Shown: positions 37,994 to 44,148 of the stretch, piece by piece | How the letters are laid out: each line of letters opens with the position of its first letter | Numbering within the stretch: position 1 is the first letter of the stretch | Assembly (NCBI GenBank): GCA_902765395.1 | Contig: CACWZP010000008.1 | Location: forward strand, 1-64,000 | Direction of reading: 5' to 3' | From: an uncultured Eubacteriales bacterium | GTDB taxonomy: Bacteria > Bacillota > Clostridia > Christensenellales > Aristaeellaceae | Length of the DNA: 64,000 nucleotides | Translations under genes and position numbers: made by a program | Notes under the pieces: generated by a model | What the model saw: the letters and a program-made list of their open reading frames with translations, nothing else | What the model was told of the DNA's origin: nothing | Database searches by the model: none

Positions 37994-38545
37994 ATGAATC
38001 GAGAAGAGGCACTGGCATTGCTGAAGGAATACAACAAGGAGCCCTTTCACATCGAGCACGGGATCACCGTGGGCCATGTGATGCGCTGGTACGCCGAAAA
38101 GCTGGGCTACGGCGACGAGGCGGACTTCTGGGAGACGGTGGGCATCCTCCACGACCTGGACTTTGAACAGTGGCCCGAGGAGCACTGCCACAGGGAGCAG
38201 CAGCTGATGGCGGAGCGGGGGCTGGACGCGAGGCTGATCCGCGCCACGGCCAGCCACGGCTGGGGCGTCAGCTTCGACGACCTGCCCAGGCCCGAGCACG
38301 AGATGGAAAAGGTGCTGTTCGCCGCGGACGAGCTGACCGGGATCATCGGCGCGGCGGCGCTGATGCGGCCCTCGAAGAGCTGCGCGGACATGGAACTGAA
38401 GAGCCTGAAGAAGAAGTACAAGGACAAGCGGTTCGCCGCCGGGTGCAGCCGGGACGTGATTGCCCGGGGCGCGGAGCTGCTGGGCTGGGAGCTGGACAGG
38501 CTGCTGCAGGATACGCTGGACGCCATGAAGGCGTACGCGGAGTGA
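37994..38545 (+). CDS. HD-domain phosphohydrolase-like protein
   Basis: 183 residues. His in FHIEHGITVGHVMRW, the HD pair in GILHDLDFEQWP and a later ATASHGWG give the metal-binding set of HD hydrolases. Substrates of this short subgroup are unknown, possibly a nucleotide. It follows the holin-like gene by 36 bases with GAAAGGAAG upstream, so it belongs to the same transcript. Confidence 0.85.
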   Translation: MNREEALALLKEYNKEPFHIEHGITVGHVMRWYAEKLGYGDEADFWETVGILHDLDFEQWPEEHCHREQQLMAERGLDARLIRATASHGWGVSFDDLPRPEHEMEKVLFAADELTGIIGAAALMRPSKSCADMELKSLKKKYKDKRFAAGCSRDVIARGAELLGWELDRLLQDTLDAMKAYAE

Positions 38546-38853
38546 GGGAACAGGCAACAGGAACAGGGGCTGCCGCGTTGTTTTGCGGAGGCAGCGCAAT
38601 ATCGTCTTGAAGCTTTGTTCGCCGATAAAAACCTCCCCATTGTATGGAGAGGTTTTTTGTCGGCGTATGTCAGGCAACGGGCGATTCCCTTATACTTAAT
38701 TCCATCTAAGATATGTACAAAATGCGGAGTGGTTTTTTCGTTCTGGCAAAGCTGAGCGGAGAGAGGCGATGCAGCGCATCGTTGACCGGAGCGAAGCACA
38801 GCCAGGGCGGAAAAGACGCCCGCAGTTGTGCATGGATTAGACGGAATTTAGTA
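38545..38853. repeat. Spacer with B3 repeat and bidirectional terminator
   Basis: GAGGGAACAGGCAACAGGAA (from 38545) is followed by GGCTGCCGCG (38568-38577), the reverse complement of the shared core: a one-sided B element. AAACCTCCCCATTGTATGGAGAGGTTTTTT (38626-38658, both ends with A/T runs) is a terminator for the HD gene and the convergent RND gene. Nothing gene-like is seen from 38660 to 38853. Confidence 0.7.
38626..38658. terminator. Bidirectional terminator between the HD gene and the RND transporter
   Basis: Stem CCTCCCCAT/ATGGAGAGG (one mismatch), A4 on the left and T6 on the right. The same sequence family terminates the PAP2 gene. Confidence 0.85.
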
Positions 38854-41800
38854 TTACTTCAGCTTTACCCGCATGGGCTTGGCCGGGGGCGTGTAGCTGA
38901 AATCGGGCACGATGGCGGGAGCCTTTTCCGCAGGCGCAGACTCCGCCGCGGGCGCTTCCACGGGCGTTTCCGGTGCAGGCGCTTCCACGGGCGCTTCCGC
39001 AGAGGCAGTTTCCGCAGGCACGGCCTCCGCCGCGGGCGCTTCTTCCGCCGCCGGGATCGCCGCGGGCGCCTCCGTCCGGTCCTCGCCGTCCAGCACGGAG
39101 TCGTCGGTCATGCCGGCGGCCTCCTTGATCATCTGGATCTCCCGGGCCTTCATGGTCTTGCCGTTCACCAGGTCGTACAGCACCGGCACCACGAACAGCG
39201 TCATCAGCGTGGCGTAGGTCAATCCGCCGATGGACACCACGGCCATGGGCTGCATCATCTCCGCGCCCATGCCCCGGCCCAGCGCCATGGTGGACATGCC
39301 CAGGATGGTGGTCAGCGCCGTCATCAGGATCGGCCTGAGGCGGATGCGGCCGGTCTCGATCAGGGCCTCCCGCTTCTCCATGCCGCTGATGCGCAGCTGG
39401 TTCACGCAGTCGATGAACACGATGCCGTTGTTCACCACCACGCCGGACAGCACCAGGAAGCCCAGCATGCTGACGATGGACAGGTCCATGCCCGTCAGCA
39501 GCAGCGCCAGCAATCCGCCGGTGAAGGCCAGGGGAATGGTGAACATGACGATGATGGGGGACTTGAAGGACTGGAACTGGGCCACCATGATCAGGAAGAT
39601 CAGCAGTATGGCGATCAGCACCATCCAGACCAGGTCCTGCATGATCTTCATGACGGTCTCGTTCTCGCCGGACAGGTCCACGCTGTAGCCCGCGGGCACG
39701 GCGTAGTCCTTCAGCTTCGCCTCGAAGGCGTCGCTGACGTGGTTGGCGCTGTAGCCCTCGGCCACGCCGAAGGACACCGACACCATGCGCTTCTGGCTGG
39801 CGCGGTTGATGGTGGACAGGCTGTTGGCGTCCGTCACCTCGGCCACGTCGCCGATGCGCACCAGCTTGTTCTCCTCCTCGCCGTCCACCTCGATCTCCAG
39901 GTCTTCAACCTCCTCGGGGGTGATCTCGGCGTTGGCGGCGTCGGACAGGTACACGCTGTACTCCTTGCCGTCGAAGGTCACCTTGGTGATCTCCGTGCGC
40001 CCGGCCACCTTCTGGGCCACAAACTGGAACACCTGGGCGGTGGTCAGGCCCTGGTCGATGGCCTTCTCCTTGTCCACCTGGATGCGCAGCTCCGGCACGG
40101 CGTCCTCCAGGCCGTCGTCCACGTCGACGGTGCCCTCGGTCTGCCGGGCCAGCTCGGCCACGTCCCTGGCGATGGCCTGCAGGGTGTCGATGTCCTCGCC
40201 GGTGATCTCGGCGGAGATGCCGCTGCCGGTCATCATGGAGATGTCCATGGTGCTGGCCTGCACGGACAGATCCGCGCCGTATTTCTCGCCGATGGCGCTC
40301 ATCTGGCTGGCGATGTCGGCGTTTTTCAGGCCCAGGGTGTCGTCGATCATGATGTAGTAGCTCATGCCGCCGCCGCCGGACAGCCCGGACAGCATGCCGC
40401 CCGCGCCGCCCATCAGGCCCACGGACTGCACGCCCTCGATTTCAAGCATGTCGTCCATGATGGCCACGGCCTGCTCCTTTTGCTGGGCGTCGGTCATCTC
40501 CGGGTCAAACTGCAGATCGGCGCTCATCTGGCGGGAGTTGACCTCCGGCATGAAGGAGATGCCCATCTTCGGCACCTGCATGGCAGAGAACACCAGCAGC
40601 CCCAGCGCCGCCAGCAGCACCAGCGGCTTCACCTTCAGCGCCCCGCGCAGAAGGCCGGTGTAGCCCCGCTGGATGGCGCCGAAGACGCGGTGCCTGTGGG
40701 GCTTGGAGTGGCGCATCAGGAACGAGCACATGGCGGGCACCACCGTCATGGCAACGAACAGGCTGGCCAGCAGCGAGAACGCGATGGTCAGGCCCATGTC
40801 GGAGAACAGGTCGCGGGCCATGCCCTGCACGAACACGATGGGCAGGAACACGCAGATGGTGGTGAGCGTGGAGGCGAACAGCGCGCCGGAGACGGATTTC
40901 ACGCCCTCCACGCAGGCGCGCAGCAGGGGTACGCCCTCCTCGTCGTGGAGGCGGTAGATGTTCTCGATGGCCACGATGGAGTTGTCCACCAGCATGCCGA
41001 TGCCCAGGCTCAAGCCGCTCAGCGACAGCACGTTCAGCGTGATGCCGGTGAAGTACATGCACACGAAGGCGATGACCACGCTGATGGGGATGGAGAAGGC
41101 CACGGTGATGGTGGGCCGCAGGTCCATCAGGAACAGCAGCAGGATCAGTATCGCCAGGCCGCCGCCGGACAGCAGGTTGTTCAGCACGGAGTCGACGATG
41201 ATCTTGATGTATTCGCCCTGGTTCATCAGGTCGACGATGTGCAGGTTCTCGTCCTCCGCCATCAGCGCCTTCGCCCGGTCGAGGATGGTTTCCGCCACGT
41301 CGGCGGTGGAGTAGGTGGACTGCTTGTCGATGGACAGCAGGATGCCGTCGGCGCCGTTCAGCTTGGTGAACACCTCGTCCCGGTTGTCGGCCATCTCCAC
41401 CCGGGCCACGTCCAGCAGGCGCACCTCGTCGATGGAATCCAGCCCCAGGTCGAACAGCTTCATCCGCCTGAGGCTGTCCAGGGAGTTGAACTTGTCGCCC
41501 ACGCGCACCAGCACCTGCTCGTTTTCCGCGTCGTAGACGTAGCCCGCGGGCATGGAGAAGTTCTGGGCGCCGATGAGCCCGGCCACCATCTGCACGGTGA
41601 TCACGCCGTCCAATCCGGCGCTCTCCAGGGCCTCATCCCGCTTTTCGTTGAACTCCTTGCGGGCCTTGGCCAGCTCCGCCTCGCCGCTTTCGATCATGGC
41701 GGCGGCCTGGGCAAAGCCGCTGTCGGCCTGCTTGCGGGCGGCCTGCAGCTGGGCCTTGGCGTCGGCGAGGTTGGTGTCCTCGTCGATGCCCTCGATATAG

Positions 41801-43965
41801 CCGCCGGGGATGATGCCCTTCTTGAGCTTCTCCAGCGTGCCGTCGATCTGGGCGATGCCCGCGTCCAGCTGCGCCAGGCCTTCCTTGGCCTGGGTGTACT
41901 GGGCGTTCAGGGCCTCGGGATCCTGTGCCAGGGCCAGCGCCTTGTATTCGTCGCTGCCCTCCAGCGCGTCGATCTGCCCCTGCAGCAGCGCGATCTGCTG
42001 GCGCAGGGTGTCGGGGTCGAGGACGCTGTCCGCGACCGGGCTCATGCCGCCCAGCTCGGTCTGCAGCGCGGAGATGCGCCCGTTGAGGGATTCGACCTGG
42101 CGCTGGGCCTCGGCGCGCCGACTCTCCACGTCGGCATTGTCGCTCTCGGCGATGGCCAGGGCGGCGCGCTTGGCCTCCAGGCTGGCGGTGTCGGTGGCCA
42201 GGGCCTGCTGCAGGCCGGACACCGTGCCGGACTGGGCGCTGATCTCGGAATCCAGCTGGTTGAGGCTGGCCTGCGCGGCGCTCAGCTGGTTGCGCAGGGC
42301 CTCGATGCCGCCGTCCTCGGCCAGCGCCCGGAAGGGGCTGTAGCCGGTGAGGGTTTCGGGGTCGGGGGTGACGGTGGCCTCGACGGACGGCTCTTCGGAA
42401 GCGTCCACAGTGTCTACCGCGCCGGCGGGCTGGGTGCCGTCGGTCTGGCCGGGGCTCTCGGTTTCGGCTGGGGCCTCGGTTTCGGCTGGGGCCTCGGTTT
42501 CAGCGGGGGCCTCGGTTTCAGCGGGGGCCTCGGTTTCAGCGGGGGCCTCGGTTTCGGCGGGGGCCTCGGTTTCGGCGGGGGCCTCGGTTTCGGCAGGAGC
42601 CTCGGTTTCAGCAGGAGCCTCGGTTTCGGCGGGGGCCTCGGTTTCAGCAGGAGCCTCGGTTTCGGCTGGGGCCTCGGTTTCGGCGGGGGCCTCGGTTTGC
42701 TGGGGCGCCTCGGTCTTGTTGTCCGCGGCGTCGATCTTCTGCTGGAGCTCCGCGATCTCATCCTGCAGGGACTGGCGCTGACCCTCCAGCTCGGACAGGC
42801 GCGCCTTGGCGCTGTCCAGGTCGGCCTGGTCGGAGGCCACGGCGCTCTCCAGCGACGCCACATCGCTCTTCAGCGCGTCCGCGTCCAGCAGATTGAGGTC
42901 GGCCAGATACTGCAGCTGGGCGTCGCGCTGGGCGTTCAGCTCGTCGATCTGGCTCTGGAGGTCGGCCCGGGTGGCGTCGATGCCGCTGGCGGCGAGGCCG
43001 TTGTCGTCGGCGCTGTCCAGCTGCTGCTGGAGCGCCTCCAGCTGCTGCTTGAGGGCGGTCAGCTGCTCCTGGCCCTGCTTCAGCGCGGCGCGATCCTCGT
43101 CGGTCATGTTCACCAGCGGCTCCATGGCCTGGATGGCCTTGTTCAGCTCTTCCCGCTGGGCGATGAGCTCGGCGCGCTGGGCCTCCAGCTGCTGGATGGC
43201 GGGTTCGATCTTGTCAGAGCCGCTGTCGATGGCGTCCAGGGCTTCGTCGATCTTCTGGTAGGCCTGTCGGCGCGCGCGGGCCAGCTGGCGCTTGCCGTCG
43301 GACAGCTGGGCCTGGGCGTCGTTCAGCTGGCGCTCCACGTCGGCCAGCTCCGCGTCCACGTCCTCGAGGATGGCGCTGTTGAGCACGTCGATGCGGCTCT
43401 GCTCGATGACCACGTCCACCCGCTGCTCGATCAGGCCGGAGGCGCTGGCCGAGGCCACGCCGTTCAGGCTCTCGAAGGCGGGGATCAGCTCGTCCTCCAC
43501 GTAGTCCGACAGGGCAAGGATGTCCATGTCGTCCCGGGAGACGGAGAGTATGGCCACGGGCAGCATGTCCGGGTTCAGCTTCATGGCCACCGGCGCGCCG
43601 ATCTCGTCGCCCCAGTTGCCACGCAGCTGCTCCAGCCGGGAATTCAGCTCGATCAGGGCGGTGTCCATGTTGGCGCCGTCGTTGAACTGCATGATGACCA
43701 CGGACACGTTGTCCCGGGAGGAGGAGGTGATCTTCTTCACGTCCGTCAGCGTGGCCACGGCGGCCTCCATGGGCCGGGTGACCTCGGCCTCCACCTGCTC
43801 CGGGGTTGCGCCCACATAGGTGGTGTACACCACCACATAGGGCAGGTTCATGCTGGGCAGCAGGTCGGTGGTCATGTGCTGGAAGGAGATGACCCCCAGC
43901 ACGATCACCAGTATGATGCCCACGATGACCGTATATGGCTTTTTAACGCTGTATTTTGAAAGCAT
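38854..43965 (-). CDS. Giant RND (HAE1/AcrB-type) transporter with a coiled-coil insertion and PAETEA repeats
   Basis: 1703 residues against about 1050 for AcrB-type pumps. The membrane core is typical: helix 1 at 11-30, the porter domain, a block of helices after ILILLLFLMDLRPTITVAFSIPISV with the proton-relay stretch GIGMLVDNSIVAIEN, and a second block ending RLRPILMTALTTILGMSTMALG. Between about 195 and 780, where AcrB begins its docking (DN) subdomain, there is a 585-residue insertion: long heptad-like Gln/Leu/Ala-rich helices, then about 14 PAETEA hexapeptides (419-503), then a second helical arm returning to the conserved AQNFSMPAG. A Pro/Ala/Glu-rich cytosolic tail of about 70 residues ends the protein. 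No adaptor or outer-membrane partner gene is adjacent. Confidence 0.93.
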   Translation of the reverse strand: MLSKYSVKKPYTVIVGIILVIVLGVISFQHMTTDLLPSMNLPYVVVYTTYVGATPEQVEAEVTRPMEAAVATLTDVKKITSSSRDNVSVVIMQFNDGANMDTALIELNSRLEQLRGNWGDEIGAPVAMKLNPDMLPVAILSVSRDDMDILALSDYVEDELIPAFESLNGVASASASGLIEQRVDVVIEQSRIDVLNSAILEDVDAELADVERQLNDAQAQLSDGKRQLARARRQAYQKIDEALDAIDSGSDKIEPAIQQLEAQRAELIAQREELNKAIQAMEPLVNMTDEDRAALKQGQEQLTALKQQLEALQQQLDSADDNGLAASGIDATRADLQSQIDELNAQRDAQLQYLADLNLLDADALKSDVASLESAVASDQADLDSAKARLSELEGQRQSLQDEIAELQQKIDAADNKTEAPQQTEAPAETEAPAETEAPAETEAPAETEAPAETEAPAETEAPAETEAPAETEAPAETEAPAETEAPAETEAPAETEAPAETESPGQTDGTQPAGAVDTVDASEEPSVEATVTPDPETLTGYSPFRALAEDGGIEALRNQLSAAQASLNQLDSEISAQSGTVSGLQQALATDTASLEAKRAALAIAESDNADVESRRAEAQRQVESLNGRISALQTELGGMSPVADSVLDPDTLRQQIALLQGQIDALEGSDEYKALALAQDPEALNAQYTQAKEGLAQLDAGIAQIDGTLEKLKKGIIPGGYIEGIDEDTNLADAKAQLQAARKQADSGFAQAAAMIESGEAELAKARKEFNEKRDEALESAGLDGVITVQMVAGLIGAQNFSMPAGYVYDAENEQVLVRVGDKFNSLDSLRRMKLFDLGLDSIDEVRLLDVARVEMADNRDEVFTKLNGADGILLSIDKQSTYSTADVAETILDRAKALMAEDENLHIVDLMNQGEYIKIIVDSVLNNLLSGGGLAILILLLFLMDLRPTITVAFSIPISVVIAFVCMYFTGITLNVLSLSGLSLGIGMLVDNSIVAIENIYRLHDEEGVPLLRACVEGVKSVSGALFASTLTTICVFLPIVFVQGMARDLFSDMGLTIAFSLLASLFVAMTVVPAMCSFLMRHSKPHRHRVFGAIQRGYTGLLRGALKVKPLVLLAALGLLVFSAMQVPKMGISFMPEVNSRQMSADLQFDPEMTDAQQKEQAVAIMDDMLEIEGVQSVGLMGGAGGMLSGLSGGGGMSYYIMIDDTLGLKNADIASQMSAIGEKYGADLSVQASTMDISMMTGSGISAEITGEDIDTLQAIARDVAELARQTEGTVDVDDGLEDAVPELRIQVDKEKAIDQGLTTAQVFQFVAQKVAGRTEITKVTFDGKEYSVYLSDAANAEITPEEVEDLEIEVDGEEENKLVRIGDVAEVTDANSLSTINRASQKRMVSVSFGVAEGYSANHVSDAFEAKLKDYAVPAGYSVDLSGENETVMKIMQDLVWMVLIAILLIFLIMVAQFQSFKSPIIVMFTIPLAFTGGLLALLLTGMDLSIVSMLGFLVLSGVVVNNGIVFIDCVNQLRISGMEKREALIETGRIRLRPILMTALTTILGMSTMALGRGMGAEMMQPMAVVSIGGLTYATLMTLFVVPVLYDLVNGKTMKAREIQMIKEAAGMTDDSVLDGEDRTEAPAAIPAAEEAPAAEAVPAETASAEAPVEAPAPETPVEAPAAESAPAEKAPAIVPDFSYTPPAKPMRVKLK
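42457..42711 (-). repeat. 18 bp tandem repeat, about 14 units, coding PAETEA
   Basis: The unit CTCGGTTTCGGCGGGGGC (plus strand) recurs with exact 18-base period from 42457 to about 42708. Units differ mainly at synonymous third positions (GGCGGG, AGCGGG, AGCAGG, GGCTGG), so the peptide is conserved while the DNA has drifted. The edges are TESPGQ and TEAPQQ. Copy number is likely to vary between strains. Confidence 0.95.
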
Positions 43966-44148
43966 GCCGCGCCTCCCGAGGCTGTGAAAGCTATATTGCG
44001 CCTATTTAATACGATTCTATATCAAATATATGAACCAAATATTAACAAATCGCCGCAATCATTATAGCGGCACCGGGCCTGTTTGTCTACAGGGTTTGTG
44101 AGGTTTAACATAAAAAGGCGCCGCCGGGCGGGGACGGGGCGTTTTACG
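43966..44148. other. Upstream region of the RND gene
   Basis: AT-rich leader (43990-44050) likely to hold the RND promoter, but no clear pair of hexamers was found. A GC-rich stretch (AAAAAGGCGCCGCC to GGGGCGTTTT, 44111-44145) folds only weakly. Confidence 0.3.

Follow-up and report, generated by a model that had tools for sequence, protein, structure and literature searches.

The stretch of DNA analysed here (the window, 64,000 nucleotides) contains at positions 38854-43965, on the minus strand, a single uninterrupted reading frame of 1703 amino acids, an RND permease gene with a 592-residue insert (Table 1). The protein matches Pfam family ACR_tran with 671 bits (cut-off 28) in two stretches, covering both halves of the permease, which bears out the AcrB/HAE1-type core put forward in the original prediction; by this profile match the window permease is an AcrB-type (HAE1) RND permease. 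A match to MMPL (22.6 bits, cut-off 20.5) covers part of the second half only, and the best NCBIfam RND subfamily, NF033617, scores 530.7 bits, below its curated cut-off of 1250. The equivalents of D407, R971 and T978 are retained, while those of D408 and K940 are Asn; we take these five to be the proton-relay residues, and their mapping onto the window permease is likewise our assumption. Asn is found at the D408 and K940 positions in 16 and 18, respectively, of 30 insert-free relatives. A genome-wide profile search revealed no further full ACR_tran permease in the host genome. The Pro/Ala/Glu-rich tail noted at the C-terminus is indeed present (residues 1610-1703), but is missing or unlike in several aligned relatives.

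The reading frame is open throughout the insert and relatives carry an insert at the same site, which rules out a reading-frame artefact. A 1748-residue open frame on the opposite strand (38713-43959, plus) spans the entire pump gene; it was set aside as a gene, and is probably a shadow of RND coding DNA. The presumed neighbouring frames, which have no Pfam matches, are oriented divergently on the upstream side and convergently on the downstream side, an arrangement which suggests that the permease gene is probably transcribed alone. The convergent neighbour (37994-38545, plus) resembles an HD-type protein when inspected by eye.

Table 1. Features of the permease gene in the window (positions are those of the window; residue numbers are those of the window permease).
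Feature	Position	Strand	Basis
Promoter-like site, 96 bases upstream of the permease	44061..44089	-	11/12 consensus matches; consensus match only
N-terminal part, residues 1-195: TM1, first porter part, start of docking subdomain DN	43381..43965	-	ACR_tran / insert-free HMM alignment
Arm 1, residues 189-416, predicted heptad-repeat helices	42718..43401	-	AlphaFold2 helices; heptad z 9.2
Tip linker, residues 417-553, predicted disordered	42307..42717	-	AlphaFold2 low pLDDT
18-bp tandem array, 14.8 copies, encoding PAETEA repeats (12 exact, residues 427-498)	42447..42714	-	
Arm 2, residues 554-782, predicted returning helices	41620..42306	-	AlphaFold2; heptad z 4.2
Arm 2 break, loop P(G/A)G...G...(D/E)	41767..41823	-	Alignment; non-helical in AlphaFold2 model
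Tip halves of both arms, dN/dS near 1	41881-43110 (window)		One-pair comparison
Residues 789-1601: remainder of docking subdomain, porter domains, TM2-12	39163..41601	-	Profile alignments
C-terminal tail, Pro/Ala/Glu-rich, residues 1610-1703	38857..39138	-	Translation, composition

The insert site was computed with a reference HMM that was derived from 30 relatives without insert, all from the same phylum. Position 194 of this HMM aligns with residue 194 of the window permease and position 197 with residue 789, so that 592 extra residues lie in between. This bears out the insertion that had been placed between residues of about 195 and 780. The docking region had been described as replaced; since its second half, C-terminal to the insert, aligns normally with the insert-free relatives, the N-terminal docking subdomain is only interrupted. 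The insertion point had also been equated with the start of this subdomain, but it lies slightly inside, near AcrB residue 195-200 in co-linear numbering, given the limits that we presume for the AcrB docking subdomain.

The insert consists of two helical arms connected by a linker. A hydrophobic period of 3.5 residues is evident in arm 1 (z 9.2) and arm 2 (z 4.2), in each case reached by none of 500 shuffles; it was found neither in the linker (reached by 482 of 500 shuffles) nor in a control stretch of the core (144 of 500). Residues 133-927 were modelled with AlphaFold2 as a single chain, with 76 named relatives in the alignment (mean pLDDT 77, pTM 0.35). As had been anticipated, this monomer model shows a helical hairpin rooted in the docking subdomain. 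Its predicted arms are nearly equal in length (228 and 229 residues) and both are interrupted by breaks; with a helix rise of 0.15 nm per residue they would extend over approximately 34 nm if straight. Two breaks occur at similar distances from the base in arms 1 and 2 (∼98/100 and ∼136/137 residues), a spacing that an antiparallel hairpin would produce, and unpaired breaks are predicted at ∼170 residues in arm 1 and at ∼58 and ∼111 residues in arm 2. The P(G/A)G...G...(D/E) loop of arm 2 recurs, though not identically, in 12 of the 13 host-family proteins aligned, the remaining one (L092) having a gap, and the base of arm 1 (residues 196-285) is conserved across the host family. Nearly all of fragment residues 287-417, in the linker, have pLDDT values below 50. 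The proposed coiled coil of 585 residues therefore applies to its two heptad-like arms, but not to the ∼137 middle residues (417-553) that are predicted to be disordered. The PAETEA hexapeptides, estimated at about 14, are present in 12 exact copies (13 if counted as APAETE).

A Foldseek search with the modelled fragment returns RND pumps first (E 4.5e-5), over ∼130-155 columns and with low TM-scores, and Rad50 also matches. A short relative, L161 (1178 residues), was folded as a whole with AlphaFold2 (mean pLDDT 78, pTM 0.66), and is predicted to contain a single hairpin, formed by residues 189-266 and 272-342 with a five-residue turn. Its core matches AcrD/AcrB with an E-value of 3.6e-65 and a target TM-score of ∼0.80. 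Derivation of the insert from a known domain family was considered and rejected, as the Pfam and NCBIfam searches gave only weak coiled-coil look-alikes (SMC, Rad50, PspA, Phage_scaffold); the NCBIfam look-alike pneumo_PspA, for example, scores 21 bits against a cut-off of 850.

Strong ACR_tran permeases (E below 1e-147) were detected in 17 of 100 genomes searched of the host family, and ACR_tran matches at 1e-15 in 44 of 151 genomes of the order. Besides the host, the genomes retrieved comprised 12 of 16 strongly matching ones in the family and 28 of 43 matching ones at the level of the order. In the family, 13 proteins were read across the site, and each of them carries the insert (390-703 residues). 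Among the 41 enlarged proteins of family and order, the window permease included, a single insert at this site is found in 28 (27-703 residues); the remaining 13 (L118-L129 and L131, of the same order) show other insertion patterns, and their insert regions give mixed heptad results, mostly without signal. These 13 have inserts in the docking subdomain together with inserts either in the second docking subdomain, the latter without heptad signal, or at profile position ∼485-500. A search of named Bacillota records with an insert-bearing query gave 581 matches, of which the 80 best were taken; 4 of these do not cover the site and the other 76 all contain the insert (64-647 residues, median 291). 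At least L132 and L134 appear to duplicate the records L097 and L095. Judged by record title, the carriers include Lachnospiraceae, Oscillospiraceae, Erysipelotrichaceae and Clostridium sulfidigenes, as well as the gut genera represented by Blautia, Roseburia, Agathobacter and Faecalicatena contorta.

The heptad signal exceeds that of all 200 shuffles in 95 of 103 inserts of at least 60 residues, and fails to do so in 8. Pro/Gly-rich linkers are common in the host family (11 of 13 proteins) and rare elsewhere (one of 15 other order members and 4 of 76 named proteins); this scarcity beyond the host family marks the linker as an addition to the basic design. The tip repeat itself varies among relatives (PAETEA, PENTEQ, GTGEGG and others). 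In 46 genomes of the phylum most RND genes align with the profile in one full-length stretch. The alignments of seven RND genes of these genomes break around profile position 178-252, in some cases at 246-251, which represents another site. In line with the original prediction, which tied the insert to cells lacking an outer membrane, it is seen in none of the 27 full-length RND genes that 10 Omp85-positive genomes contain, each of these genes aligning as one stretch of 1015-1089 residues; the remaining entries of this set are a gene broken in two and a fragment interrupted by stops.

It had also been predicted that no adaptor gene adjoins the pump. An adaptor HMM detects none in the window, while the same HMM does find adaptor-like controls elsewhere in the host genome (five hits at two loci). 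Adaptors are thus not lacking genome-wide, as HlyD-type genes exist, but the two loci examined are, by their neighbours, ABC-associated: one contains ABC_tran and MacB genes and the other is ABC-importer-like. Across loci, an adjacent adaptor accompanies 30 of the 30 insert-free pumps first sampled, which were the best-scoring ones and not a random draw and whose score is partly circular since 28 of them were used to build the HMM, versus none of 120 loci of the enlarged kind (L092-L211; 116 pumps read across the site and 4 cut). Two weak adaptor hits in the latter set lie ∼8 kb (L133) and ∼3 kb (L187) from the pump. For the 116 placed pumps, at least 1 kb of upstream flank is available in 111 and less in 5, and at least 1 kb on both sides in 99. 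With TIGR01730, an adjacent adaptor is found in 9 of 9 insert-free genomes tested; among the matches listed for 27 genomes with insert-bearing pumps, none lies within 15 kb of such a pump.

TolC-like OEP genes occur in 28 of 30 insert-free genomes versus none of 28 enlarged-pump genomes, the host included, and Omp85 genes in 10 of 30 versus none of 28. These 28 genomes represent the single-insert kind only, and one of them (G142) has just 27 extra residues plus a second, insert-free pump. In the host genome, which is ∼96% complete, neither a TolC-like/OEP match (E 1e-5) nor Omp85 was detected. The host appears to be single-membraned, as had been supposed. The insert and an adjacent adaptor seem to exclude each other in the pumps sampled, and pumps with a stalk seem, from their gene contexts, to work without an adaptor. 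The stalked pump is real, occurs in many Clostridia, is predicted to be structured and is tied to the absence of an adjacent adaptor and of a TolC-like gene. As a separate observation, in 14 of 20 Omp85-negative genomes with insert-free pumps an OEP match lies within 4 kb of the best pump (L062-L091, e.g. L086:179-1417:-); three such OEP proteins have two Pfam OEP stretches each, the best of which shown covers only ∼83-187 of the profile, as if reduced.

Twenty further genomes, chosen for unusual scores and not at random, add intermediate combinations. Ten loci are insert-free and have no adaptor, some of them with at least 20 extra residues near position 784; three are insert-free with an adaptor; three have short inserts (21-39 residues) and four long ones, all seven without adaptor. 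In one of the four long-insert loci (L255) the insert is more likely located at profile position 246-251. In L241 and L259 an insert-free, adaptor-less permease is split over two frames. Since some pumps lack both insert and adaptor, a hairpin is no prerequisite for dispensing with an adaptor, and these ten loci weaken the view that the insert by itself accounts for the adaptor's absence. In a FastTree phylogeny of 171 pumps, the 138 that lack an adjacent adaptor all group together in a single split (support 0.983), as do 109 pumps with an insert at this site, including the window permease (support 1.0), whereas the joining of the short-insert pumps L112 and L252-L254 with the long-insert group has a support of 0.04. 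The confinement of the adaptor-less pumps to one split suggests that adaptor loss probably preceded the gain of the hairpin, an order that depends on the root, which was placed by hand on an Omp85-positive group. The evidence for mutual exclusion between insert and adaptor comes largely from a single event on this tree.

Selective constraint along the insert is uneven. In a comparison of the window permease with its nearest relative, a single pair with uncertain alignment of the tips, dN/dS values are 0.22 and 0.31 for the core, 0.54 and 0.50 for the hairpin bases and 0.99 and 0.97 for the tip halves; the linker and the C-terminal tail give 0.71 (dS 0.9) and 0.20 (dS 1.0), respectively. The bases are also the most conserved part of the insert over 12 relatives, with median identities of 0.47 and 0.59. 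The bases are thus kept while the tips drift, which speaks against a conserved duct wall along the whole length. The proposal of a built-in adaptor or spacer is supported in so far as the hairpin is rooted in the docking subdomain, but the nearly free evolution of the tips fits a spacer better than a full-length conduit. This drift is the main reason why our confidence in the hairpin as an exit stalk is moderate.

In AcrB-type pumps, substrates leave through the docking crown, which faces away from the membrane. A hairpin rooted at this crown, in lineages that have neither an adjoining adaptor nor a TolC-like gene, is best read as an extension of the exit. We therefore favour, with a probability of about 0.5, a self-sufficient HAE1-type exporter of a single-membrane, Clostridium-like bacterium in which a hairpin on the docking crown of each protomer serves as exit stalk, and in which the hairpin arose after adaptor loss. 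Each protomer would raise an antiparallel coiled-coil hairpin, both arms of which would continue from the docking subdomain, at the very membrane-distal crown that contacts AcrA and TolC in Gram-negative pumps. If the protein is a trimer, as presumed, its three hairpins would together place six helices on top of the exit funnel, directed outwards, and would carry the exit from the membrane into the wall, so that they may help to move substrate past it; the low-complexity linker would form a flexible tip. A more far-reaching version, in which the crown has in single-membrane Clostridia turned into an exit duct, a six-helix tube or stalk with an estimated length of 20 to over 30 nm that takes substrates through the wall without adaptor or TolC as an independent counterpart of the mycobacterial MmpL tube, is less probable.

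Several other explanations have to be weighed against an exit stalk. The docking surface, freed by adaptor loss, may simply have gained and lengthened insertions under relaxed constraint, leaving the hairpin with at most a mild spacer role. The graded insert lengths, from the 21-39 residues of L112 and L252-L254 (four pumps whose joining with the long-insert group has a support of only 0.04) to ∼700 residues, would fit such an appendage, as would the dN/dS of ∼1.0 in the tip halves, the other insertion patterns in 13 of 41 enlarged proteins, mostly without heptad signal, the probably different site in L255 and the extended docking-domain loops of Bacillus YerP and BC5435 that are described in PMC5417439. 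However, constraint is evident at the bases, where dN/dS is ∼0.5 and identity is highest, the heptad pattern is kept in 95 of 103 inserts, and none of the 76 named proteins covering the site, drawn from the best 80 matches to an insert-bearing query, lacks the insert; we consider this explanation rather doubtful. Alternatively, the coiled coil might serve mainly to keep the trimer assembled, taking over from the adaptor ring. This is unlikely, as AcrB-type pumps trimerise without such a coiled coil and arms of more than 200 residues seem longer than needed, although conservation within the insert does peak at the bases and the coiled coil of MmpL10 is reported to drive its oligomerisation and trimer formation (PMC12183618).

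The tips, which evolve almost freely and differ in their repeats between relatives, could also belong to a surface-exposed stalk that contacts the wall or the outside and is shaped by phages, neighbours or host and not by transport; the concentration of the Pro/Gly-rich linker in the host family, as compared with the order and the named proteins, would agree with this. Yet the Pfam scan gives no known wall-binding family, the NCBIfam look-alikes are far below their cut-offs, and the position on the exit crown is better explained by transport, which makes a surface role improbable. Ordinary tripartite use, with an adaptor encoded elsewhere that docks in trans, is conceivable given the HlyD-type genes of the host genome, two of which had their neighbours examined. 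It is nevertheless very improbable: both loci point to ABC systems, 28 of 28 enlarged-pump genomes are without an OEP match, and the surface on which an adaptor would dock is interrupted.

The closest functional analogues of the window permease may be the mycobacterial RND exporters MmpL5 and MmpL10, to which it is similar in having a non-Gram-negative envelope, a long antiparallel coiled-coil insertion (predicted in the present case) and no TolC. According to PMC12501195, the coiled coil of MmpL5 is a 196-residue insertion modelled as a ∼13-nm six-helix tube, its deletion abolishes efflux and a disulphide is reported at the tip. Two or more cysteines are present in only 2 of 104 of the inserts studied here, and such a tip disulphide is therefore not a general feature. 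Moreover, MmpL5 carries its insertion in periplasmic domain 2 and has an MmpS partner, whereas the insertion of the HAE1-type window permease is located in the docking subdomain of the first half, and inserts of its kind reach ∼700 residues, in the host family often with a disordered tip. The MmpL proteins belong to the HAE2/MMPL family, unlike the window permease with its 671 bits for ACR_tran versus 22.6 bits for MMPL, and the two coiled coils are presumably of independent origin. With AcrB/MdtB-type HAE1 pumps the window permease shares the ACR_tran match outside the insert, and the L161 model has an AcrB-like fold; it differs in the 592-residue insert, the absence of an adjacent adaptor and the lack of an OEP match in its genome.

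Among Gram-positive pumps, YerP/SwrC of Bacillus subtilis and BC5435 of Bacillus cereus have an extended loop around the TolC docking domain (PMC5417439); being described as a loop, it differs from the predicted hairpin of the window permease. Operons with RND, adaptor and TolC-like genes are known in single-membrane Firmicutes (PMC8809574), a comparable setting at the level of the phylum; the comparable RND pumps in our sample have no insert and an adjoining adaptor, unlike the window permease. A review (PMC8277102) names YerP and describes HAE-1 pumps as Gram-negative. In the open-access literature searched, no HAE1-type pump was found to be described with a long coiled-coil insert. In 2017, the way in which RND pumps of Gram-positive bacteria operate was described as largely unknown (PMC5417439). 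A helical hairpin at the adaptor docking site makes this question testable, as export past the wall versus assembly. As the carriers include gut genera, the pump may bear on the export of toxic compounds by common gut bacteria, and if the tube proved true, a built-in duct through the wall would have arisen at least twice among RND pumps.

The gene neighbourhoods of the relatives were surveyed at the 76 named loci with a simple frame caller, which picked the wrong frame in some of them. It yielded 55 same-strand genes less than 250 bases downstream, 3 of which do not adjoin the pump. TetR_N matches 26 of these 55 genes and 3 of 32 close upstream genes, and such neighbours would fit a regulated exporter of xenobiotics or amphiphiles. 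HD and HD_4 each match 5 of the 55 downstream neighbours.
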